This document shows positions 26,744-37,282 of a stretch of 37,282 bases of DNA, in pieces. Where the stretch lies: assembly GCA_948469375.1 (NCBI GenBank), contig CAOKLO010000011.1, positions 1 to 37,282 of the forward strand. Direction: 5' to 3'. The DNA comes from an uncultured bacterium. GTDB taxonomy: Bacteria > Bacillota > Clostridia > Oscillospirales > Oscillospiraceae. The notes below the pieces were generated by a model. It saw only the letters and a list, made by a program, of their open reading frames with translations, was not told the DNA's origin and did no database searches. The position numbers were made by a program, and so were the translations under genes. Numbering within the stretch: the first letter of the stretch is position 1; each line of letters begins with the position of its first letter.

Positions 26744-26818
26744 TTTGCGGAAATCCGCCCCGTATGGGATGGCTGCGGCCTCCCGTGCGGGGCTATCCGT
26801 TTGAAAGGAGGAACCACT

Positions 26819-29800
26819 GTGGCAGACCAAAGACCCACCAACAAGGAACGTGTCAAAGAAATCGTTGCCGGGATCGAGCAGAACATCCAGGAGCTTTTCC
26901 TGAGCGAGAGGTATTTTGACTACCTCCGCACCATGTCCCGGTTTCACCACTATTCCGTCAACAACACCCTTCTCATCCATATGCAGCGGCCCAACGCCTC
27001 CCAGCCCGTGGCGGGCTTTCGGAAATGGCAGCAGTTTGGCCATCATGTGAAAAAGGGCGAGAAGGGCCTGACCATCATCGCCCCCACGCCGCTGAAAAAG
27101 AAAATCGAGGAAATGAAGCTGGACCCGGATACCAAAGCACCCATGCTGGACCGGGACGGGAAGATCATCATGGAGGAAAAGACCGTTGAAATTCCGCTGT
27201 TCAAGCCGGTCAAGGTCTTTTCCGCTGACCAGACGGACGGCAAGCCCCTCCCCAGCCTCGCCGCCCCCCTGACCGGGAATGTGGAGCAGTATGAGGCGTT
27301 CATGGAGGCCCTGCGCCGCACGTCCCCCATGCCCATCTCCTTTGCCCCGCTGGACCCAGGGACAGACGGCCTTTGCAACTTCACCAGGCAGACGATCTCC
27401 ATCCGGGAGGGCATGAGCGAGGTGCAGACGGTAAGCGCCGCCGTCCATGAGATCGCCCACGCGGTCCTCCACAACCGGGAACAGGACCGGCTCACTTCCG
27501 CTGCCGGTACGGACAAGGACCCGCCCACGCCCAAGGACAACAACACCAAGGAGGTGGAGGCCGAGAGCGTGTCCTTTGCCGTCTGCCAATATTACGGCAT
27601 TGACACCAGCGATAACTCCATGGGCTATATCGCCGGGTGGAGTAAGGACCGGTCCCTGCCAGAGCTGAAAGCCAGCCTGGAGACCATCACCAAGACCGTC
27701 AGCGGCTTGATCTCCAGCATCGACAAGCACTTCGCCGAGATTTGTCAGGAGCGCGGCATTGACCTCACCGCCCAGCCGGAGCAGGCCGCGCCGGTGGTTG
27801 AACTGCCGGACACCCCGGAGCGGTTTGTGTCAGATGTGTTCGCCCATATGCAGGAGATGTATGCGGCACAGATGATTTCTGACCCTTTGGGTTCCATCAC
27901 CAGGAGTGAGGCGGAAACGCATTACACGAAAGAAGTATCCCATGGTGATTTTTCCGGTATTCACCATCTCCTGGACAGCCTCCAGGAACAGGCGGTCACA
28001 CCTACCATGCCGGAGCTGCGAAGCCGCCTGGAAAAGCTGGAGGCTGAATGGACCGCTGGCCTCTCCTATGAGGTCAAGCCCTATATCCCCGGCAGCAGCA
28101 TTGACCGCTCTTATCTGGAGGCGCACCGGCTGGCGGACGATGGATTCCGGTATAGCAAGATCATCTTTGCCGGCTCAAATGAAATGTGTTCCGATTTGCT
28201 GCAAAAGCTGGAGGCAAAGGAAATCACGATTGGGGAAGTCCGTGCTTTGGAGCCCGAAGACCGGCTTGAGCCGCAAGTCCCCGCCGCCCAGCCGGAGCAG
28301 GCCGCGCCGGTGGCCGAGGACAGCATAGAACGCTTCTCTGCCGACCTTTACGACTATATGGCCCAGCTTCATCAGGCTGGCATTTTGCAGCATCCCTTTA
28401 CCCAGGATACCAGGGAACAGTCCATTGCGGACGTTGTACAGGAGCTGCGCGGCGGTCATTTTGACGGTCCGCTCAATAGCCTGATGTATATTGCCGGACA
28501 TTTTGCGGGCGAAGGTCGTGCGGTCAACGATCTGATTGACCGCCTGGATAAGCTGGAGGAAGCGGCAAAGTGTCCTACAGAGGAAGAAGCCCTTTTTGTG
28601 ACGGACAGCGCCTTTCTGCATATCCAGGTCACGGATGGCGGCTGCGGCTACACGCTCTACGACAAAGCGACCATGCGCCAACTGGACGGTGGGCAGATGG
28701 AACTGGCGGACGAGGGCGGCAGTCCCCAGGAACGTTTTCGCGCCGCCGCTGACCGGATCGTCAGCGGGGAACCGAATATGGACGGGGCCTCCCTGGAGTT
28801 CGCGCCGGTGGGAATGATAAATGTTTTGAGGGAGGCCGCAGAACGGGCCGCGCCGGAGACTGCGGTGGAGAGCAGGGAGCAGTCCCCCGCCCCGCCGGAA
28901 AAATTGCGGGACATCACGCTGGACGAATACCCCATGCCGGACCCGGAGTATACGATGGAGGACCTGGAGCGGTGCGGCTATCTGGACGGCGACCTGCTGC
29001 CCCTCTCCCAGGACCGGGCGTTGGAACTGATCGACAGGGACATGACCGTCTATATCATGGTGATCGGCGATACGCCCATCATGGCGTTTGACCGTGCGGA
29101 AATCGAGGAACAGCAACCCGGCGCTCTGTTCGCTGTCCCCCGCGAGGAATGGGAGGAAAGCCGGGACTTTCAGCAGGCCGTGGCGGACCGGAGGAACCAC
29201 CAGGAGGAACGGGAGAGCGCGTTTTTGAACCATAGCGGGGACTGCTTCGCCATTTATCAGGTCAAAGATGCCCCCGCGCTGGAGGATATTCGCTTTGAAT
29301 CCCTGGAGTGGATCAGGTCCAAAGGGTACACGCCAAAAAGGGAGAATTATGACCTGATCTACACCGCCCCGCTGCCGGAGGCGGACGGCGTGAACGCCGC
29401 CCTGGACAAGCTCTGGTATCAGTTCAATAACGAGCACCCCACTGACTACCAGTCCCCCTCCATGTCCGTCAGCGACATCGTTGCAATCAGGCGGGACGGC
29501 GTGGTATCCTTCCATTACTGCGACAGCTACGGTTTCCAGCAGCTGCCGGACTTCATCAGGCCGGAGAATTATCTGAAAAACGCGGAGATGGCATTGGAAG
29601 ATGATTACGGCATGATCGACGGCATCATCAACAACGGCCCCAAGGAGGGACCCACCGCTGCCGGACTGGAGGCCCAGGTCAAGGCGGGGCAGACCATCTC
29701 CCTCTTTGATTTGGCCGCGGCCACGCATCGGGAGCACAGGGAGAAAAAGTCCGTCATGGCCCGCCTCCAGCAGAAGCCGCCCCAGCAGGAGAAAAAGCGA

Positions 29801-29836
29801 AAGGCGCTCAAAAAGAGCGCGGAAAAGGAGAGATAA
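26819..29836 (+). CDS. Polyvalent protein: ArdC-like ssDNA-binding domain, zincin protease, repeat modules
   Basis: A 1,005-residue cytoplasmic multi-domain protein of the ArdC/LtrC kind that elements send or express on arrival in a new host to counter defence. Residues 1-130 are ArdC-N-like (YFDYLRTMSRFHHYSVNNTL...FRKWQQFGHHVKKGEKGLTI). A zinc-metallopeptidase follows with HEIAH at 210-214 and the downstream EVEAESVSFAVC glutamate helix. Two related modules begin ERFVSDVFAHMQ (near 27819) and ERFSADLYDYMA (near 28328), each after the same 30-bp DNA repeat. A YodL-like LDEYPMPDPEYTMEDLERCGYLDGDLLPLS block and further LPD-like domains lead to a basic tail, KKSVMARL...KKSAEKER. GTG 26819 is chosen because AAAGGAGG is at 26804-26811. 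Confidence 0.85.
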   Translation: MADQRPTNKERVKEIVAGIEQNIQELFLSERYFDYLRTMSRFHHYSVNNTLLIHMQRPNASQPVAGFRKWQQFGHHVKKGEKGLTIIAPTPLKKKIEEMKLDPDTKAPMLDRDGKIIMEEKTVEIPLFKPVKVFSADQTDGKPLPSLAAPLTGNVEQYEAFMEALRRTSPMPISFAPLDPGTDGLCNFTRQTISIREGMSEVQTVSAAVHEIAHAVLHNREQDRLTSAAGTDKDPPTPKDNNTKEVEAESVSFAVCQYYGIDTSDNSMGYIAGWSKDRSLPELKASLETITKTVSGLISSIDKHFAEICQERGIDLTAQPEQAAPVVELPDTPERFVSDVFAHMQEMYAAQMISDPLGSITRSEAETHYTKEVSHGDFSGIHHLLDSLQEQAVTPTMPELRSRLEKLEAEWTAGLSYEVKPYIPGSSIDRSYLEAHRLADDGFRYSKIIFAGSNEMCSDLLQKLEAKEITIGEVRALEPEDRLEPQVPAAQPEQAAPVAEDSIERFSADLYDYMAQLHQAGILQHPFTQDTREQSIADVVQELRGGHFDGPLNSLMYIAGHFAGEGRAVNDLIDRLDKLEEAAKCPTEEEALFVTDSAFLHIQVTDGGCGYTLYDKATMRQLDGGQMELADEGGSPQERFRAAADRIVSGEPNMDGASLEFAPVGMINVLREAAERAAPETAVESREQSPAPPEKLRDITLDEYPMPDPEYTMEDLERCGYLDGDLLPLSQDRALELIDRDMTVYIMVIGDTPIMAFDRAEIEEQQPGALFAVPREEWEESRDFQQAVADRRNHQEERESAFLNHSGDCFAIYQVKDAPALEDIRFESLEWIRSKGYTPKRENYDLIYTAPLPEADGVNAALDKLWYQFNNEHPTDYQSPSMSVSDIVAIRRDGVVSFHYCDSYGFQQLPDFIRPENYLKNAEMALEDDYGMIDGIINNGPKEGPTAAGLEAQVKAGQTISLFDLAAATHREHREKKSVMARLQQKPPQQEKKRKALKKSAEKER
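27768..27797 (+). repeat. 30-bp direct repeat, copy 1
   Basis: Identical over 30 bp to 28284-28313. It encodes AQPEQAAPV at the boundary just before the first ERF.(S/A)D module of the polyvalent protein. The copies are 516 bp (172 codons) apart, as expected if the module was duplicated together with its linker. Confidence 0.8.
28284..28313 (+). repeat. 30-bp direct repeat, copy 2
   Basis: Second copy of the 27768-27797 sequence, again encoding AQPEQAAPV directly before a module starting ERFSADLYDYM. Intact reading frame between the copies means that recombination between them would remove one module without a frameshift. Confidence 0.8.
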
Positions 29837-29850: not shown

Positions 29851-30980
29851 CTCTGTTTCCCGCCGCCCAGGCACAGCCTGGACCGGATACGCATGAGAAA
29901 TTTGTTTCCGATCTTTTCTTCTATCTCAATGCACTGCAAGAGGCGGGGACCATTAAGATTCAGTATCCCTATTCTCTGGACAAGGATACCGTTGAAAGCC
30001 ACTATCTCAAGAGACTGTCCCAAGGGGAATTTGATGACATCCGCGACCTGTTTTTGCGGGTAATGGACATAACAGACCCGCCTGCTCTGCATACCCTGTG
30101 GGACCGGCTGGAGTGCCTGAGCGACCAGTGGGACGCGGCGCTGGTGTGTAAGGTCGAACCGGATATTGAGTTTGGGCCGCACCGCACCAGAGGCATTGTC
30201 CAGACTTACTTTGAGCTGGACGGAAACCTCGTCCCAGGTGAGATCGCTTTCAAAGGAACACTGAAGCAGTGTCAAAACGTTCTTTACGGCCTGGAGGCCG
30301 GAGAGCTCTCAATGCGGGGACTGCGTGATCGCGAACCGGGCTTTACACCGCCCAAGCCGCACTTTCTCTACAAGGTGGAGGCGGACACGGACGGTCAGTT
30401 CTTTGTCCAGGCGTTTTTGGTAACAAAACAGGCGGAATTTCTCCCCGGGCCGGTGCTGTTCTCTGGGGGCGAGGATGTCTGCTTCGATCTGTCGGAAGAT
30501 CTCAATTGCGGCATATTGGTACAGGATGATTTTTTCACCGCCAGCGAGGCGCGGGAGAGCTGCTATACCACAAAAGACGGCGCAGCGCTGGTCGCCTTGG
30601 TGGGGCCGGACAAGGAAGTCTACCTGGGCAGGCGTGACCACTATGACGGCCACGGACACTATCGCAATGATGAGAAATCCCTTATCCATATTTCGGACAC
30701 CTACAGAGTGTTTAACCTGATCTCCGGCCATGACACGCCCTATTCCTATGATGAACTCCACGGGACAAGAATGTTTTCGGAGAAGGAGTTCGCACGGTTT
30801 ATGGACTTGCAGCTTGAGGGAACAAAACAGCCTCGTGACCACACCAGAGGAACGTTTTCTCAGCCGGAGACCCGCAAGCGCGTGGAGAAGAAGTCTGTTC
30901 TGGCAAAGCTGAGCGTCCCTCTGCCCCGGCGGGAGCATAAAAAATCAGCGCCCAAAAAGAGCGCGGAAAGGGACCGGTAA
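29841..30980 (+). CDS. Polyvalent-region protein with the same repeat module
   Basis: A 379-residue cytoplasmic protein without signal or membrane segments. Its N-terminal ~150 residues (EKFVSDLFFYLNALQEAG...VESHYLKRLSQGEFDDIRDLF...LWDRLECLSDQWDAALVCKVEP) repeat the module seen twice in the preceding protein. The middle holds a second segment (TYRVFNLISGHDTPYSYDELHG). The tail, KKSVLAKL...KKSAERDR, copies the tail of the upstream protein. It therefore looks like a partial duplicate of that gene. Function unknown; by position it belongs to the anti-defence/establishment set. ATG 29841 follows GGAAAAGGAG. Confidence 0.8.
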   Translation: MTDALFPAAQAQPGPDTHEKFVSDLFFYLNALQEAGTIKIQYPYSLDKDTVESHYLKRLSQGEFDDIRDLFLRVMDITDPPALHTLWDRLECLSDQWDAALVCKVEPDIEFGPHRTRGIVQTYFELDGNLVPGEIAFKGTLKQCQNVLYGLEAGELSMRGLRDREPGFTPPKPHFLYKVEADTDGQFFVQAFLVTKQAEFLPGPVLFSGGEDVCFDLSEDLNCGILVQDDFFTASEARESCYTTKDGAALVALVGPDKEVYLGRRDHYDGHGHYRNDEKSLIHISDTYRVFNLISGHDTPYSYDELHGTRMFSEKEFARFMDLQLEGTKQPRDHTRGTFSQPETRKRVEKKSVLAKLSVPLPRREHKKSAPKKSAERDR

Positions 30981-30994: not shown

Positions 30995-31341
30995 ATTTCA
31001 CTCATGTGGAGCATATGGAGGATGTCGTGGGCATCCGGCAGACCGGCGTACCCTGCGGACTGGTCAACCGGCGCATAGAACCGGGGTATGTGCTGGCAAA
31101 TGGCACGGTTCTGCTGGAAAGCGAGAAGGATGAGGACGGGCGCTACATTGGCGGCGCTGGCATGGAGGGGATGTATCTGCGGACCAATGAACGCTATGAG
31201 CCCCTTCCCGGCCCGGACGGGAAGCCCCTCGCGTTTCGCCGCGTTGGCCCGCACTCTGTCCTTGAACATTTGAAAACGCATGAAAAACAGGAGAAAATCA
31301 GGCAAAAGCCGAAGAAAACAAGGAGGGACATGGACCGATGA
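30985..31341 (+). CDS. Small hypothetical protein of the polyvalent region
   Basis: A 118-residue soluble protein, not recognised. It begins MTDDF, reusing the start seen at 29841 because of the junction repeat. The centre (GYVLANGTVLLESEKDEDGRYIGGAGMEGMYLRTNERYEPL) is beta-rich and could be an LPD-like domain. The tail is very basic (KQEKIRQKPKKTRRDMDR). It overlaps the TTRAP gene start by 4 bp and is expressed with it. Confidence 0.75.
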   Translation: MTDDFTHVEHMEDVVGIRQTGVPCGLVNRRIEPGYVLANGTVLLESEKDEDGRYIGGAGMEGMYLRTNERYEPLPGPDGKPLAFRRVGPHSVLEHLKTHEKQEKIRQKPKKTRRDMDR

Positions 31342-31577
31342 ACGCGCTTACATTTGAGGAAAAGAATCTGGTCTGCATCTACAGCGGCGGCGGCACCCGG
31401 CGGGAGACGATCTCCGCGCTGGAGGATATGCGGCGCTATGTGCAGCCGGACGAGACCGAGCTGCTGGAGCTGACCGGCAGCGCCCTGGACAAGCTGCGGC
31501 GCATGGACGATGAGCAGTTCGCCGCCCTGGACCTGATCCCCGACTTTGACCCGGAGGATTCTGCCTATGGCGAATAA
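31338..31577 (+). CDS. Transposon-transfer assisting (TTRAP) family protein
   Basis: A 79-residue protein matching the TTRAP family of conjugative transposons: FEEKNLVCIYSGGGTRRETI..L..M..Y..PDE.EL..L..SAL.KL..M.DE.FAALDLIPDF. It is small, acidic, helical and cytoplasmic. The name reflects its association with transfer regions; the mechanism is unknown. Its start lies in an ATGA overlap with the preceding gene, and its end overlaps the start of the giant methylase/helicase gene by 11 bp. Confidence 0.88.
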   Translation: MNALTFEEKNLVCIYSGGGTRRETISALEDMRRYVQPDETELLELTGSALDKLRRMDDEQFAALDLIPDFDPEDSAYGE

Positions 31578-34500
31578 CAACCTCCAGGCGGCGCTGCAAA
31601 TGGCGGACAACGCCGCGAGGCAGGTCACGGGCAGCTACCGGACATGGACGGACTTCCTGGCTACGTCCGGCAGGCTCTACAAATACCCGTTCCAAGAGCA
31701 GCTTCTGATTTACGCCCAGCGGCCCGAGGCCACCGCCTGCGCGGAGTGGGACTTCTGGAACCAGCGGATGCGCCGGTACATCCGGCGCGGCACCAAGGGC
31801 ATTGCCCTCATTGACAGCAGCCAGGGCAGGCCCGTCCTGCGCTATGTGTTCGATGTCGCGGATACCGTCCGCAGGGATGAGACCGGGCTGAACCCGAACC
31901 TCTGGAAGTATGAGGCGGAACACCAGGACGTGGTAACTGCGGCGCTGGAGAGCCGCTTTGACGCTTCCGGTACGGATGGCCTCGCCGCCCAGCTGGAGCA
32001 GGTCGCCCAAAAGCTGGCGGGAGAATATTGGAATGAGTATCAAAGGGACATCATCCGCACCGTTGACGGTTCCTTCCTGGAGGGGTATGATGCTCTTAGC
32101 ATCGGCTCATCGTTTCGCAGCGCCGCCTCCGCCAGTATCGGCTATACGCTGCTGTCCCGCTGCGGCCTGAACCCGGAAAATCACTTCCAATATGAGGACT
32201 TCCTGAGTGTTTTCGATTTCAACACCCAGGACACGGTGACGGCCTTGGGCGGGGCGGTGAGCCAGTGCAGCGAACAGGTACTGCGGCAGATCGAAACCGT
32301 CATTAAACGCTATGAGCGCGAAAAGAGCGCGGAAAGGGGTATGGAGCATGGAGAACAATCTGACCTACACCCAAGTGGGGGACTATCTGATTCCCAATCT
32401 GGCCCTGCCGGAGCAGCCGAACCGGGACCTGGGCAAGTACGGGCGGATGCGCCTGCGGTATCTGAGGGAGCACCGGCCCGTGGTGTGGAACTGCATGGTG
32501 ATGAAGGGGACGCTGTTCAGCCACCTGCTGGAGATCGAGGACGCGGCGAACAGCCGCCTGGAGCTGCTGATGCCCCAGTTGGCGAAAGCGGCGGGAGCGA
32601 CGGAGCGGCTGAAAGCCACCGATCAGATGGCATGGGTGGGCCTGATGAACAATTGCAAGGCCCAGGCGGAGGAAATGATTCTGTCGGAGCTGATCTACAG
32701 CTGAGTTTCATGCCGCCGGAGATTCCCACACAGCAGCAGCAAATAGAGGCCATTCAGGAGGCAGAGAGCGTGAAAGCGCCCTCTGCCTTTTCCGTCTCAC
32801 AGGCGGACGTTGACCGGCAGCTGCGGATGTACGGCGGAAAAATGCGCATTTTCGAGCTATATCAGCAGGATTTGTCCACAAAAGACCGTGTTGCGGCTAT
32901 CCGGCGGGAATACGGCGCCAGTGGTCACAGCGTTTCCTTTTCAGATGGCAGAGGCGGCTTTTTGGACTACCGGCCCAGCACCGGCATGGAGTTCTGGAGC
33001 AAGCCCACGGACAAGAAATTCATCGTCAGATGGTCTGAGGTGGAGAAGCGGATTCATGAAATGGTTGCGGAGGGCAGCTACCTCTCCCAGGCAGAGATGG
33101 AGAAGTACCGGAGTGACCACCTGGAACAGGCTCCCGTGGAACCGGAACCCGCGCCAATGCCGGAGGCCACCCAGCCGAAACCGCCCACCCCGGCCCGCTC
33201 CCCCCAGGAGGCCATTGACGCGGCGCTCCAGGAGTGGAACGGGGACATTACCAGTAAGCACACCGTTGTCCGCTATATGAAAAACCACGCCCGCGACAAG
33301 GGCACGGCGGCATGGCTGAAAAGCGAATACGGGGATAACCTCCCCGCGTTCCCGGTCCCAGGAGCTGGCACCGACCTCCCCTGGCCCAAGGTGCAGCGGC
33401 GGATTGCCCAGCTTATCCAGAATGACCAGTTCTACACCCAGGAGGAACGGGACAATTTTGATGATATTGACCCCGTGGCCATCCGGGAGGCTCTGGAAAG
33501 CGGCGAGGAAAGCTCCTTTGTCCGGCAGGTCATGGCCGATGTGGAGCGGATCGCCGACCAGGAGGAACAGGCGCAGGAACCGGCAGCACCAAAAGTTCGG
33601 GAAATCTATGAGAAGTATAAGCCCATGGTCAAGGAGCTGGTGCTGGCGGATGCGGCCTATCAGAACGCCTGCCAAAACAGCGATAAGGACCTCGCGCTGC
33701 TTGAGGGCAGCGAAGCGGTCAAACGGGCCGCGATCTCCATCAAAGAAACGGATTTTATGCGGTCTTATTATGATATGCCTGAGTTCCAGAAGCGCCTGCA
33801 CAAAGAGATACTGGACGAAACCTATCCGGTCCTCTCCCAGCCCCGGCAGGAGCGGATTATCATTCCAGACCGTTCCGCCCAGCCGCCCCATGACCCGCTG
33901 GCACCGGCCTACAAAGTGGGCGATACGGTCTATCTTGAAAATACTGCCTTTGAGATCACCGGGATTGGCCTGCTTGATGTGCAGATGCTCGACCCCACGC
34001 TGCGCTACCCCGTTTTCCGAAGTATGAGCAAGGAAGACTTTGAGCGGCTGCTGCATCGGGATCCCCGGAATGACCGGATCACCAGCTACCTGCCCGCCGA
34101 TCTGAGGCGCGTCAACGATGATTTTCGGGAAGTCCTGACCTCCCATCTGCTGACGGACCGGGACAAGGACTACATCTCCGGCTGGCTGCGTTCCGGCGAG
34201 AACAACCGGGGAATTGCCATGCGGCTGTCGGAAGCATTTGCCAGCCGCGCCGAGACAGTCACGCTGGAAACGGGGGATGTCGCGGATTATTTTACCTCCA
34301 CCACCGGTATGGCGGTAGAAATCCAGGATAAATTCGGCACAAAGCAGTCCCGTTCCTGGGAGTCTGTCGCGCCCATCCTCCGGGCGATGTACCAACAGGA
34401 GCTGGACGGCTTCACCCATGAACCGCTCCGGCGGGAACCTGTGGAGCTGGAGGGGCGGCTGCACTATCAGGTGGGCGACAAAGTGGCCTTTGCCTATGGA

Positions 34501-37282
34501 GATCACGAGGTCAACGGCACAATCGGCTACATCGGAGAGATAGATGTCCGCATTGACACCGGCCCCTACGCCTGGAGCCACCAGACGGTCAACCGGGACT
34601 TCTTTGAGGATGCCGTGCGCCACGATGAGCGCAACGCCGGTCTCTTCACGCCGGAAGCTCCCGAGCAGGAGGCCCCGGCTGCGGAACCCGCGCCAACACC
34701 GGGACCGGCAACCATCTATCCGGCGGACAAAAACGGCCTGCCCTACGATGTGGTCTTTCAGCCCCTGCGCTTTGACGGGCCGGAACAGGATTCGCCGGAA
34801 CAGGCCCCCGCCGCCGGGAACTTCCGCATTACGGACGATCACCTGGGCGAGGGCGGGCCGAAAGCCAAGTTCCGCATGAACATGGACGCCATCAACACTC
34901 TCCAGGCCATTGAGCTGGAGGGCCGGTCCGCCACCCTGGAGGAACAGGAGATTTTATCCCGCTATGTGGGCTGGGGCGGTCTGGCCGATGCCTTTGACCC
35001 GGATAAAGCAAACTGGTCCAGTGAGTTCCTGGAATTGCAGGCGGCGCTTACCCCGGAGGAATATGCTTCGGCACGGGCTTCCACCCTCAATGCCCATTAC
35101 TCCAGCCCCACCGTCATCAAGGCCATCTATGAGGCTGTCGCCAATATGGGCTATGAGAGCGGCAATATCCTGGAACCCGCCTGCGGCGTGGGCAACTTCT
35201 TCGGCCTCCTGCCGGAGAGCATGACCGGTTCCAAGCTCTACGGCGTGGAGCTGGACAGCATCAGCGGGCGCATTGCCCAGCAGCTCTATCCCGATGCCAA
35301 TATTATCGTGCAGGGCTATGAGAAAGCAAAGTTCCCCAGGGACTTCTTCGACCTCGCTGTGGGCAATGTCCCTTTTGGGAATTATCCTGTGAACGACCGG
35401 GAGTACAACAAGCTGGGATTCAACATCCACAACTATTTCTTCGCCAAAACGCTGGACCGGGTGCGCCCCGGCGGCGTGGTGGCATTTGTCACCAGCCGGT
35501 ATACCCTGGATGCAAAGGATTCCAAGGTACGGGAGTATCTCGCGGAGCGGGCCGACCTGCTGGGGGCCATTCGCCTGCCGAATAACGCTTTCAAGGCCAA
35601 CGCCGGGACAGAGGTGGTTTCGGACATCCTTTTCCTGCAAAAACGCGATACCCCCGCTGTTGATACCCCTTCCTGGGTGCATTTGAGCGAAAACAAGGAC
35701 GGTTTCGCCATCAACCGCTATTTTTTGGAACATCCAGAGATGGTTTTAGGCGTTCTGACACCGGAAAACACCCAATATGGACGGCAGGAGTATACCGTTG
35801 CGCCCATTCCCGGCACGGGCCTCGCCCAGCAGCTCCATGAGGCGGTGTCCCATATCCACGGCGAGTACCGGGAGGCCGCGCCGCCGGAACTGGACGCGGA
35901 TATTGGGGAAGCGGAGATCACCGCCATTCCGGCGGACCTCAGCGTGAAAAACTACTCCTACGCTGTTGTGGACGGCGCGGTCTACTACCGGGAAAATTCC
36001 CAAATGGTCCAGCCACATCTGACCGCCGCCGCAAAGGAGCGCGTCATAAGTATGGTGGAGCTGCGGGACTGTGTGCAGGACCTGATCGACCTCCAGATGG
36101 ACGAGTTTGCCTCAGACGATGCTATTCAAGGGAAACAGGCGGAGCTGAACCGGCTCTATGACGCTTTTTCCAAGAAATTTGGCCTCGTCAACGACCGGGC
36201 CAACCGGCTGGCCTTTGACCGGGATTCCTCCTACTATCTGCTCTGCTCCCTGGAGGTGCTGGACGATAATGGCAAGCTGAAACGGAAAGCGGATATGTTC
36301 ACCAAGCGGACCATCAAGCAGAATGTCCATGTCACCGGCGTGGACACGGCGATGGATGCCCTGGCAGTATCTATCGGGGAGCGGGCCAAGGTGGATATGC
36401 CCTTCATGGCCCAGCTCACCGGAAAATCGGAGGCCGAGCTGGAGCAGGAGTTGACCGGCGTGATCTTCCGGGACATCCGATGCAATGAGAACCCGAACCA
36501 TATCCCCAAAGCCTTTCTGGATATGGACCGGTTTCCTCTGGTCACGGCGGACGAGTACCTCTCCGGCAACGTGCGCCAAAAACTCCGCATGGCTCAGGCG
36601 TTTCATGCCGCGCTGCCGCCGGAACAGCAGGACCGCGCCAAGGCCAATGTGGATGCTCTGACCGCCGCCCAGCCCAAGGACCTGGACGCTTCCGAGATCG
36701 AGGTCCGGCTGGGGACGGACTGGATCGACAAGTTCTACATCCAGCAGTTTATGTACGAGACGCTGAAAACGCCCAATTACCTGCGCGGCAAGATTGTGGT
36801 CAACCATTCTAAGGCGACAGAAGAGTGGTTCATCAGCGCGAAAAACAGCGTTGACAGCAAAGATGTTGCCGCTTACACCACCTACGGCACCAGCCGCGCC
36901 AGCGCCTACCGCATCCTGGAGGATTCTCTGAACCTCCGGGATGTTCGCATTTATGACACCGTGGAGGACCTGGACGGCAAGGAAAAGCGGGTTTTGAACG
37001 CCAAAGAGACCACCCTGGCGGCGCAGAAGCAGCAGGCCCTCCGGGATGAGTTTAAGGACTGGATATGGCGGGACCCCCAGCGGCGGCAGGCCCTGGTGAA
37101 GCAGTACAATGAGGAAATGAACTGCATCCGGCCCCGTGAATACGATGGAAGCCGGATACAGTTTTACGGCATCAACCCGGAGATCAAGCTGCAACCTCAC
37201 CAGATCAACGCCATTGCCCACGTCCTCTATGGCGGCAATACCCTCCTGGCCCATGAGGTGGGCGCGGGCAAGACCTTTGAGA
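31567..37282 (+). CDS. Giant N6-methylase/SNF2-type helicase protein, 5' part
   Basis: An open frame of more than 1,900 codons running off the right edge; GGAGG (31553-31557) precedes ATG 31567. Residues 1-250 are the usual N-terminal module (SGRLYKYPFQEQLLIYAQRP..TACAEWDFWNQRM.RYI.RGTKGIALID). Residues about 255-380 are a Gly/Pro/Asp/Gln-rich linker encoded in the same DNA as tnpV. Further accessory domains follow. An adenine-methylase domain has ILEPACGVGNFFGLLP (about 1200) and a modified catalytic motif NVPFG (about 1265) in place of NPPF/Y. The frame ends in a helicase Walker A, AHEVGAGKT. Family members are thought to bind, modify and remodel incoming element DNA. Thr/helicase motifs II-VI lie outside the window. 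Confidence 0.9.
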   Translation, partial: MANNNLQAALQMADNAARQVTGSYRTWTDFLATSGRLYKYPFQEQLLIYAQRPEATACAEWDFWNQRMRRYIRRGTKGIALIDSSQGRPVLRYVFDVADTVRRDETGLNPNLWKYEAEHQDVVTAALESRFDASGTDGLAAQLEQVAQKLAGEYWNEYQRDIIRTVDGSFLEGYDALSIGSSFRSAASASIGYTLLSRCGLNPENHFQYEDFLSVFDFNTQDTVTALGGAVSQCSEQVLRQIETVIKRYEREKSAERGMEHGEQSDLHPSGGLSDSQSGPAGAAEPGPGQVRADAPAVSEGAPARGVELHGDEGDAVQPPAGDRGRGEQPPGAADAPVGESGGSDGAAESHRSDGMGGPDEQLQGPGGGNDSVGADLQLSFMPPEIPTQQQQIEAIQEAESVKAPSAFSVSQADVDRQLRMYGGKMRIFELYQQDLSTKDRVAAIRREYGASGHSVSFSDGRGGFLDYRPSTGMEFWSKPTDKKFIVRWSEVEKRIHEMVAEGSYLSQAEMEKYRSDHLEQAPVEPEPAPMPEATQPKPPTPARSPQEAIDAALQEWNGDITSKHTVVRYMKNHARDKGTAAWLKSEYGDNLPAFPVPGAGTDLPWPKVQRRIAQLIQNDQFYTQEERDNFDDIDPVAIREALESGEESSFVRQVMADVERIADQEEQAQEPAAPKVREIYEKYKPMVKELVLADAAYQNACQNSDKDLALLEGSEAVKRAAISIKETDFMRSYYDMPEFQKRLHKEILDETYPVLSQPRQERIIIPDRSAQPPHDPLAPAYKVGDTVYLENTAFEITGIGLLDVQMLDPTLRYPVFRSMSKEDFERLLHRDPRNDRITSYLPADLRRVNDDFREVLTSHLLTDRDKDYISGWLRSGENNRGIAMRLSEAFASRAETVTLETGDVADYFTSTTGMAVEIQDKFGTKQSRSWESVAPILRAMYQQELDGFTHEPLRREPVELEGRLHYQVGDKVAFAYGDHEVNGTIGYIGEIDVRIDTGPYAWSHQTVNRDFFEDAVRHDERNAGLFTPEAPEQEAPAAEPAPTPGPATIYPADKNGLPYDVVFQPLRFDGPEQDSPEQAPAAGNFRITDDHLGEGGPKAKFRMNMDAINTLQAIELEGRSATLEEQEILSRYVGWGGLADAFDPDKANWSSEFLELQAALTPEEYASARASTLNAHYSSPTVIKAIYEAVANMGYESGNILEPACGVGNFFGLLPESMTGSKLYGVELDSISGRIAQQLYPDANIIVQGYEKAKFPRDFFDLAVGNVPFGNYPVNDREYNKLGFNIHNYFFAKTLDRVRPGGVVAFVTSRYTLDAKDSKVREYLAERADLLGAIRLPNNAFKANAGTEVVSDILFLQKRDTPAVDTPSWVHLSENKDGFAINRYFLEHPEMVLGVLTPENTQYGRQEYTVAPIPGTGLAQQLHEAVSHIHGEYREAAPPELDADIGEAEITAIPADLSVKNYSYAVVDGAVYYRENSQMVQPHLTAAAKERVISMVELRDCVQDLIDLQMDEFASDDAIQGKQAELNRLYDAFSKKFGLVNDRANRLAFDRDSSYYLLCSLEVLDDNGKLKRKADMFTKRTIKQNVHVTGVDTAMDALAVSIGERAKVDMPFMAQLTGKSEAELEQELTGVIFRDIRCNENPNHIPKAFLDMDRFPLVTADEYLSGNVRQKLRMAQAFHAALPPEQQDRAKANVDALTAAQPKDLDASEIEVRLGTDWIDKFYIQQFMYETLKTPNYLRGKIVVNHSKATEEWFISAKNSVDSKDVAAYTTYGTSRASAYRILEDSLNLRDVRIYDTVEDLDGKEKRVLNAKETTLAAQKQQALRDEFKDWIWRDPQRRQALVKQYNEEMNCIRPREYDGSRIQFYGINPEIKLQPHQINAIAHVLYGGNTLLAHEVGAGKTFE
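32321..32335 (+). repeat. Gene-junction repeat, short copy J3
   Basis: Fifteen bases identical to the start of J1 and J2, encoding EKSAE in the helicase frame. As in J1/J2 it supplies a GGAAAGGGG ribosome site for an ATG a few bases on, here the tnpV start at 32348. Confidence 0.65.
32348..32704 (+). CDS. tnpV: TnpV family protein, overprinted inside the helicase gene
   Basis: A 118-residue protein of the TnpV family of Tn4451-type and related elements: LTYTQVGDYLIPNLALPEQP, LGKYGRMRLRYLREHRP, HLLEIEDAANSRLELLMPQL, TERLKATDQMAWVGLMNN, AEEMILSELIYS. It lies wholly inside the helicase gene in the +1 frame. Its own ribosome site (GGAAAGGGG, 32331-32339) is correctly spaced from ATG 32348. Third codon positions are 104/118 G or C in this frame (hand count), typical of the element, against 43/118 for the helicase-frame third positions over the same bases. 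Its biochemical function is not established. Automated callers would often drop it because of the overlap. Confidence 0.8.
   Translation: MENNLTYTQVGDYLIPNLALPEQPNRDLGKYGRMRLRYLREHRPVVWNCMVMKGTLFSHLLEIEDAANSRLELLMPQLAKAAGATERLKATDQMAWVGLMNNCKAQAEEMILSELIYS

Follow-up and report, generated by a model that had tools for sequence, protein, structure and literature searches.

In the window, as we call the whole stretch of 37,282 nucleotides of DNA that was analysed, a giant methylase/helicase gene carries a second gene, tnpV, within its coding sequence (Table 1). The tnpV gene is read in the +1 frame relative to its host, and the overlap amounts to 357 bases. Across relatives, the overlap occurs at a fixed site and in a fixed phase, and the sequences bear the marks of selection on both frames. 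It is highly probable that a conserved gene is nested here out of frame and that a single mRNA gives two proteins from the shared 357 bases. Well-documented same-strand nested genes are few in bacteria, and selection in both frames can rarely be demonstrated; here, the many copies of tnpV give the power to read selection frame by frame, down to one excluded amino acid. The arrangement also has a practical side, as gene tables may report either frame in common conjugative elements.

The host gene, its N-terminal module and the nested tnpV

From its ATG to a stop beyond the window on the same contig, the host gene encodes 2,766 residues with Pfam matches to N6_Mtase, SNF2-rel_dom and Helicase_C. 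With methylase and SNF2/helicase in a single polypeptide, the protein belongs to the polyvalent methylase-SNF2 type and resembles a known dyad class, which joins an adenine methylase to an SNF2 ATPase in conjugative elements (e.g. Tn1549-like ones) and for which a role in modifying the incoming DNA has been put forward (Iyer et al. 2017, PMC5512222). The main text of that paper contains neither 'TnpV' nor 'overlapping' (0 occurrences each), and the nested gene is the addition made here.

Ahead of the methylase lies an N-terminal module whose match to ArdcN is weak (best E 0.031; two of nine members at E up to 0.1). A Listeria homologue of the module is annotated as ArdC-like ssDNA-binding, and a comparison with PDB sequences returned no useful match (best E 0.071). 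An upstream ORF in the window (26801-29836) contains a stretch matching positions 16-81 of the N-module at 35 bits, so that part of the module is present twice in the element; a similar upstream match is found in many of the best 80 of at least 569 N-module loci.

The assignment of TnpV to its family is clear, with 142.7 bits against PF14198 (cut-off 27) over model positions 1-111 of 111. A search of PDB sequences with TnpV ended without a usable match (best E 0.23), and NCBIfam offered no helpful name. As the original prediction had it, TnpV possesses its own ribosome site, and the site is widely shared: of 104 non-redundant relatives, 92 have a Shine-Dalgarno (SD)-like sequence ahead of the ATG picked first. 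With the more permissive pattern of such a sequence plus any nearby in-frame ATG, the figure rises to 103 of 104, the sole miss being L276, and an exact GAAAGG at a single fixed spacing is present in 69 of 104.

Several other details of the prediction could be checked directly. Its span of 32321..32760 captured a real overlap with a loose end, since the overlap stops at 32704. The tails with the KSAE motif that close separate upstream genes are both present (J1 and J2), and the third-position G+C counts are exact, with 104 of 118 in the TnpV frame and 43 of 118 in the helicase frame, whose third positions are TnpV second positions. What does not follow from these counts is that TnpV is ancestral, since G+C reveals which frame dominates codon choice and not which is older.

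Table 1. Features of the overlapping genes and their surroundings, in positions of the window
Feature	Position	Strand	Basis
J1 tail KKSAEKER (stop), end of a separate upstream ORF	29810..29836	+	
J2 tail KKSAERDR (stop), end of a separate upstream ORF	30954..30980	+	
TTRAP, putative transposon-transfer assisting protein, directly upstream, overlapping the helicase start	31338..31577	+	PF14203, 68.9 bits
Host CDS, polyvalent ArdC-like/N6-methylase/SNF2-helicase	31567..37282, continuing past the window to equivalent 39867	+	Open frame, Pfam
N-terminal module, ~255 aa, weakly ArdC-N-like	31570..32334	+	Alignment A2
Shine-Dalgarno-like site GGAAAGGGG, 8 nt 5′ of the tnpV ATG	32331..32339	+	
Linker, acidic, cysteine-free, low-hydrophobic, helicase residues 261-379	32347..32703	+	
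tnpV, nested out of frame, 118 aa, ATG 32348, stop TGA 32702-32704	32348..32704	+	Pfam TnpV

Occurrence of the overlap and selection on both frames

Relatives were sampled with the N-module alignment A2 alone, without tnpV, to avoid selecting for tnpV. A profile search of genome contigs yielded at least 569 N-module relatives, of which the best-scoring 80, many of them near-copies, were examined. In 79 of these 80, tnpV lies directly downstream of the N-module in the same phase, and in 78 it is full-length; L106 is cut off by the end of its contig, and in L093 both frames are truncated, with a helicase-frame stop just after. None of the best 80 of at least 569 loci holds an intact helicase that keeps the tnpV region with a broken TnpV frame or start. 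In whole genomes, N-module matches of any length were found in 65 of 295 at the level of the order and in 31 of 398 at that of the phylum, counts that include short matches representing other genes and of which the rest were followed only partly. Wherever an N-module and tnpV were paired, the offset was +1 (175 of 175 pairs, some places being counted twice).

The resulting catalogue comprises 179 full-length tnpV copies, mainly from Clostridia and Bacilli, and bears out the suspicion that the overlap is widespread. One row per cluster at 92% nucleotide identity, which also removes places sampled twice, leaves 104 non-redundant rows: 58 from the whole-genome search, 36 from genome contigs and 10 from plasmids; in seven plasmid rows (L270-L276) the start and end of tnpV were placed by hand. 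Because the catalogue is restricted to near-full-length tnpV, it cannot reveal how often the gene breaks, for which the 80 contig loci serve. All 104 rows carry tnpV at the same site in the +1 phase, with both frames open over the whole of the shorter gene, as in a true nested pair.

Nested tnpV is found across Clostridia, Bacilli, Negativicutes and Tissierellia, and named plasmids extend the list of genera to Cohnella, Virgibacillus, Carnobacterium, Enterococcus, Listeria, Streptococcus, Aerococcus, Anaerococcus, Monoglobus and Selenomonas. In the most distant nested proteins, the score against TnpV drops to 27 bits in Anaerococcus and Aerococcus and to 15 bits in S. agalactiae (among the hand-placed rows, L270 is at only 15 bits); these distant plasmid proteins still keep the place, approximate length and phase of the others. 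The named rows are mostly from Bacillota. Two records titled as lying outside that phylum, Collinsella aerofaciens (L080) and a Paludibacteraceae MAG (L091), also contain nested tnpV and may reflect transfer of the element or misassigned contigs. The genome of the window itself (G000) has two further nested copies, on contigs C107 and C131; in the C107 copy, stops interrupt the N-module frame and tnpV is intact. Loci with an interrupted N-module frame and intact tnpV are L007, L068 and L266.

The helicase frame across tnpV is open far beyond what tnpV itself would dictate. With synonymous codons permuted within each gene as the null, 264.8 helicase-frame stops are expected over tnpV in the 104 non-redundant rows and none is observed, a result that includes genes with a third-position G+C of 0.45-0.55. 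In a set of 72 non-redundant overlapped genes, the count is 0 versus 163.9 expected, against 166 versus 200.5 in the equivalent frame of 32 non-redundant stand-alone genes. By comparison, the other unused frame of tnpV contains 1338 stops (1314.6 expected) and the N-module, read in the equivalent frame, 726 (823.1 expected). Counted by gene, all 113 full-length tnpV genes with an N-module upstream are without a helicase-frame stop, and all 31 without an N-module have 1 to 15; for this count, 16 of 160 tnpV matches were dropped as partial, broken or without ATG, and repeat samplings of one place were omitted (six loci in an early set, eight thereafter). Stand-alone L013 and L038 lie near a contig end, where an upstream N-module would not be visible, and have stops in the helicase-type frame. 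Beyond the overlap, a helicase-frame stop within 300 nt downstream is found in two of 104 rows (L098 and L185). Chance openness in G+C-rich DNA is rejected by the synonymous permutation together with the stand-alone and N-module controls, and the central claim of the prediction, that two real frames share some 357 bp, is upheld.

The amino acids encoded by the linker tell a similar story. Each helicase codon here begins with a tnpV wobble base and is completed by the first two bases of the tnpV codon that follows. Where a T at a pyrimidine wobble would make Cys, it is never used in overlapped genes (0 of 164 cases); stand-alone genes use it in 99 of 174 cases, and the N-module has it in 974 of 1902. 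The difference persists when genes are matched for third-position G+C (GC3; 35 overlapped, 36 stand-alone), with 0 of 49 versus 69 of 137. In the same matched set, TGG (Trp) occurs in 14 of 58 versus 22 of 78 cases, so the TG dinucleotide is not avoided as such, and a dinucleotide effect behind the missing Cys is thereby rejected. Permutation over all tnpV codons predicts 53.1 linker Cys where one is present, the N-module control giving 601 versus 481.7 expected; that single Cys (L273) is the only one among 21,099 linker codons in 179 rows.

Relative to what stand-alone genes would predict for four-fold sites, Asp is 2.3-fold and Glu 2.5-fold enriched, and Tyr, Lys, Trp, His and Phe are underrepresented; after GC3 matching, Asp and Glu stand at 1.8 and 2.2 times, with His, Tyr and Lys remaining low. 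When T is compared with C in the GC3-matched genes, significant avoidance is confined to stops and Cys and does not extend to Tyr, Trp and Phe; where T yields Leu or Ser, it is used more. The share of hydrophobic residues is 12% in the linker, compared with 21% when stand-alone genes are read in the same frame and 34% in the N-module. As the tnpV wobble bases avoid stops and Cys and enrich Asp and Glu, the linker is evidently made. Judged by its composition, it thus behaves as a selected acidic, cysteine-free tether, which is probably disordered. Selection on single linker residues is mild, and the linker sequence evolves faster than TnpV. The original prediction took the linker for a reading of the other frame of tnpV, which holds for the overlap; a purely passive reading is rejected by the excluded Cys and the enriched Asp and Glu.

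Constraint on TnpV was read from 101 sequences binned by the four-fold divergence of the N-module, which runs from 0.06 to 0.68. Helicase-frame four-fold sites inside tnpV differ by 0.01-0.15 over these bins and are near-frozen because they are TnpV second positions; that such helicase-synonymous sites hardly change means that TnpV is constrained. TnpV-frame four-fold sites diverge by 0.07 to 0.51 and, except in the lowest bin, lie somewhat below the N-module (0.51 versus 0.68 in the top bin), in part because skewed base composition lowers their saturation (0.60 versus 0.73). Selection is detectable in each frame of the nested pair, and the synonymous-site comparison that the prediction had proposed as a check finds constraint in both. 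Neither of the outcomes named as contradicting it was seen: linkers of homologues do not freely break the TnpV frame, and the helicase-synonymous divergence of 0.01-0.15 speaks for purifying selection on that frame.

Rival readings, translation and function

Could one of the two frames be an illusion? If only TnpV were real, the helicase reading would be open by chance and the N-module would be a separate short protein. The high third-position G+C of tnpV (mean 0.78 in the 72 non-redundant overlapped genes), the fact that stops in the helicase frame need a wobble T, and the faster evolution of the linker are what one would expect from this. However, the absence of stops extends to genes of intermediate G+C, none of the 31 stand-alone genes keeps the helicase frame open, Cys is excluded from the GC3-matched set with TGG unaffected, and two loci without tnpV (L171 and L228) have the N-module and the methylase region in one frame, so that we regard this reading as scarcely credible. 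Even less credit can be given to the converse, in which only the helicase is real and the TnpV frame a non-functional by-product. TnpV is indeed missing from the seven gene tables in which the host frame is given over the N-module, yet the protein is homologous to a Pfam family with stand-alone members, its frame is full-length in 78 of the best 80 of at least 569 N-module loci, and the helicase-synonymous sites inside tnpV are nearly frozen.

Two further readings concern how TnpV is made or came to be there. Internal SD sequences can stimulate frameshifting, and in the window the TnpV frame stays open for some codons 5′ of its ATG, as it would if TnpV were the tail of an N-module-TnpV fusion produced by programmed frameshifting at the SD-like sequence. 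This is made very improbable by stops that close the TnpV frame ahead of its ATG, at a distance of 11 codons in L006 and 15 in L022, which leave internal initiation as the simplest route, and by the in-frame ATG with SD-like site in nearly all relatives, often at the fixed spacing given above. Alternatively, tnpV might be what is left of a mobilizable element that had entered an snf2 gene, for snf2 genes of Streptococcus suis have been described as integration sites of tnpV-bearing elements (PMC9815147). The chance of this is slimmer still: only tnpV is present, at one site and in one phase, with an intact helicase frame across deep lineages, and there is little reason to expect both frames to survive in an insertion that has decayed.

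If tnpV is a nested gene, as we think, a single mRNA of the conjugative element would encode both proteins. Ribosomes starting at 31567 would synthesise the giant polyvalent protein, with its ArdC-like N-module, linker, N6-adenine methylase and SNF2 ATPase, in which the tnpV region, read in the helicase frame, would form a long acidic tether between the N-module and the downstream domains. Other ribosomes would most likely start internally at the conserved SD/ATG (32331-32350) and, in the +1 frame, produce the 118-residue TnpV. Helicase and TnpV would in this way be co-produced, and TnpV would be made together with a protein that protects and translocates incoming DNA.

TnpV itself is most likely a small DNA-processing accessory acting in excision, mobilisation or establishment, since some stand-alone tnpV genes follow serine recombinase or relaxase-like genes and the TnpV of Tn4451 has been proposed to be Xis-like. 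In a C. coli plasmid, a recombinase gene runs at its end into the start of a stand-alone tnpV, and the same recombinase tail recurs upstream of tnpV in L045 and L048; by sequence inspection, L044 and L251 have stand-alone tnpV after relaxase-like ORFs. In total, about nine of 54 stand-alone contexts have a recombinase- or relaxase-like upstream ORF, only one of them by annotation, and most contexts are uninformative. For Tn4451, an excision role was postulated by homology to lambda Xis (PMC3158075), and the likeness drawn here is that of a family name (Pfam TnpV), without comparison of the Tn4451 sequence itself; there, TnpV is reported as a gene of its own, and here it is nested. The role of TnpV is directly testable, because its start can be removed without altering the helicase.

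A literature search, conducted mostly outside subscription journals, found no description of tnpV nested in a helicase gene. Among known nested genes, comS lies inside srfA of Bacillus subtilis (PMC12350097). Unlike comS, the nested tnpV family has stand-alone members and sits in mobile elements, and its overlap is conserved across several Bacillota classes. In ColE1 and RSF1010, mobilization genes are nested out of frame in the relaxase gene; these, too, are nested genes in DNA-transfer modules, with different proteins and a different host gene.

Age, origin and variant arrangements

How old the overlap is can be approached through a quick N-module tree, rooted on separate ArdC-like genes and containing many long branches. 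Here, tnpV is present in deep lineages, which points to an old overlap, one that by this tree is older than nearly all of the sampled diversity. The rows L171 and L172, which lack tnpV, nest among tnpV-bearing ones, and the position of L228 is not settled.

In trees of TnpV, stand-alone and overlapped copies are mixed, with nine changes in one tree and 11 in another (for the stand-alone label). A single clade of stand-alone TnpV was rejected (AU p 0.0145, 116 columns) in a test that used a quick tree of 92 of 158 rows, with long or odd rows omitted and the overlapped set thinned, and a stand-alone group that had been chosen once an earlier tree was available. Since the stand-alone genes are not a single clade, some may be descended from copies that lay inside helicase genes. 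Two of them, L027 and L029, are placed apart from the main group by both of the larger TnpV trees, whose support near the root is weak, so that some stand-alone lineages may instead predate the overlap.

Our tentative preference is for an overlap that arose once and early in a Gram-positive polyvalent helicase, many free tnpV genes being repeated escapees. What favours a single origin with repeated escape is the constancy of the nested site and phase; such identity in 104 of 104 overlaps would seem hard to reach twice. Smaller elements would have taken tnpV, together with its own ribosome site, from the elements carrying them. The original prediction envisaged a different history, itself compatible with a nested gene, in which separate genes for the N-module, tnpV and the helicase were joined by read-through of tnpV. 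The KSAE-plus-SD tails that end two separate upstream ORFs recur at the end of the N-module, and separate ArdC-like N-module genes exist (L187-L189, L212), both of which speak for this history. Against it, no locus among those examined keeps N-module, tnpV and helicase apart in three genes, and fusions of N-module and methylase without tnpV exist (L171, L228), of which L171, with L172, nests inside tnpV-bearing lineages in the quick tree. We hold a fusion by read-through to be possible but rather doubtful, and favour, with the reserve stated, the single early origin.

Loci without tnpV take several forms. Full N-modules lacking it are decayed in L093 and L162 (the same place as L179), L180 is a stand-alone N-module gene, and L189, L205 and L212 are shorter separate ArdC-like genes. 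Long open frames without tnpV are found in L171 and L172, from one genome, and in L228; those of L171 and L228, the two traced as far as the methylase region, join it to the N-module. These three loci indicate that the host gene can do without tnpV.

How the two frames fare in annotation was seen in the gene tables of 12 plasmid records (PLSDB, incomplete), which list tnpV in three cases, the host frame over the N-module in seven and neither in two; both frames are given over one stretch in none. For a Selenomonas plasmid (L276, 4920-10616), the table lists TnpV and has the SNF2 protein start only after tnpV, and the frame is nevertheless open through the N-module and across tnpV.

Among rearranged loci, L030 (G039:C1) has both the nested gene and the helicase split: the first ~77 TnpV codons lie on one strand, and the remainder of TnpV and a helicase segment on the other, ~1.2 kb off, as after insertion with inversion. 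In L183 (G068), N-module and nested tnpV belong to an open frame of ~640 aa that has no methylase/helicase part and in its place a C-terminus that is ankyrin-like by inspection, an arrangement indicating that the N-module/tnpV cassette can join other partners. Finally, in L046 (G020), the open frame past the linker resembles, again by inspection, the N-terminus of MutS.
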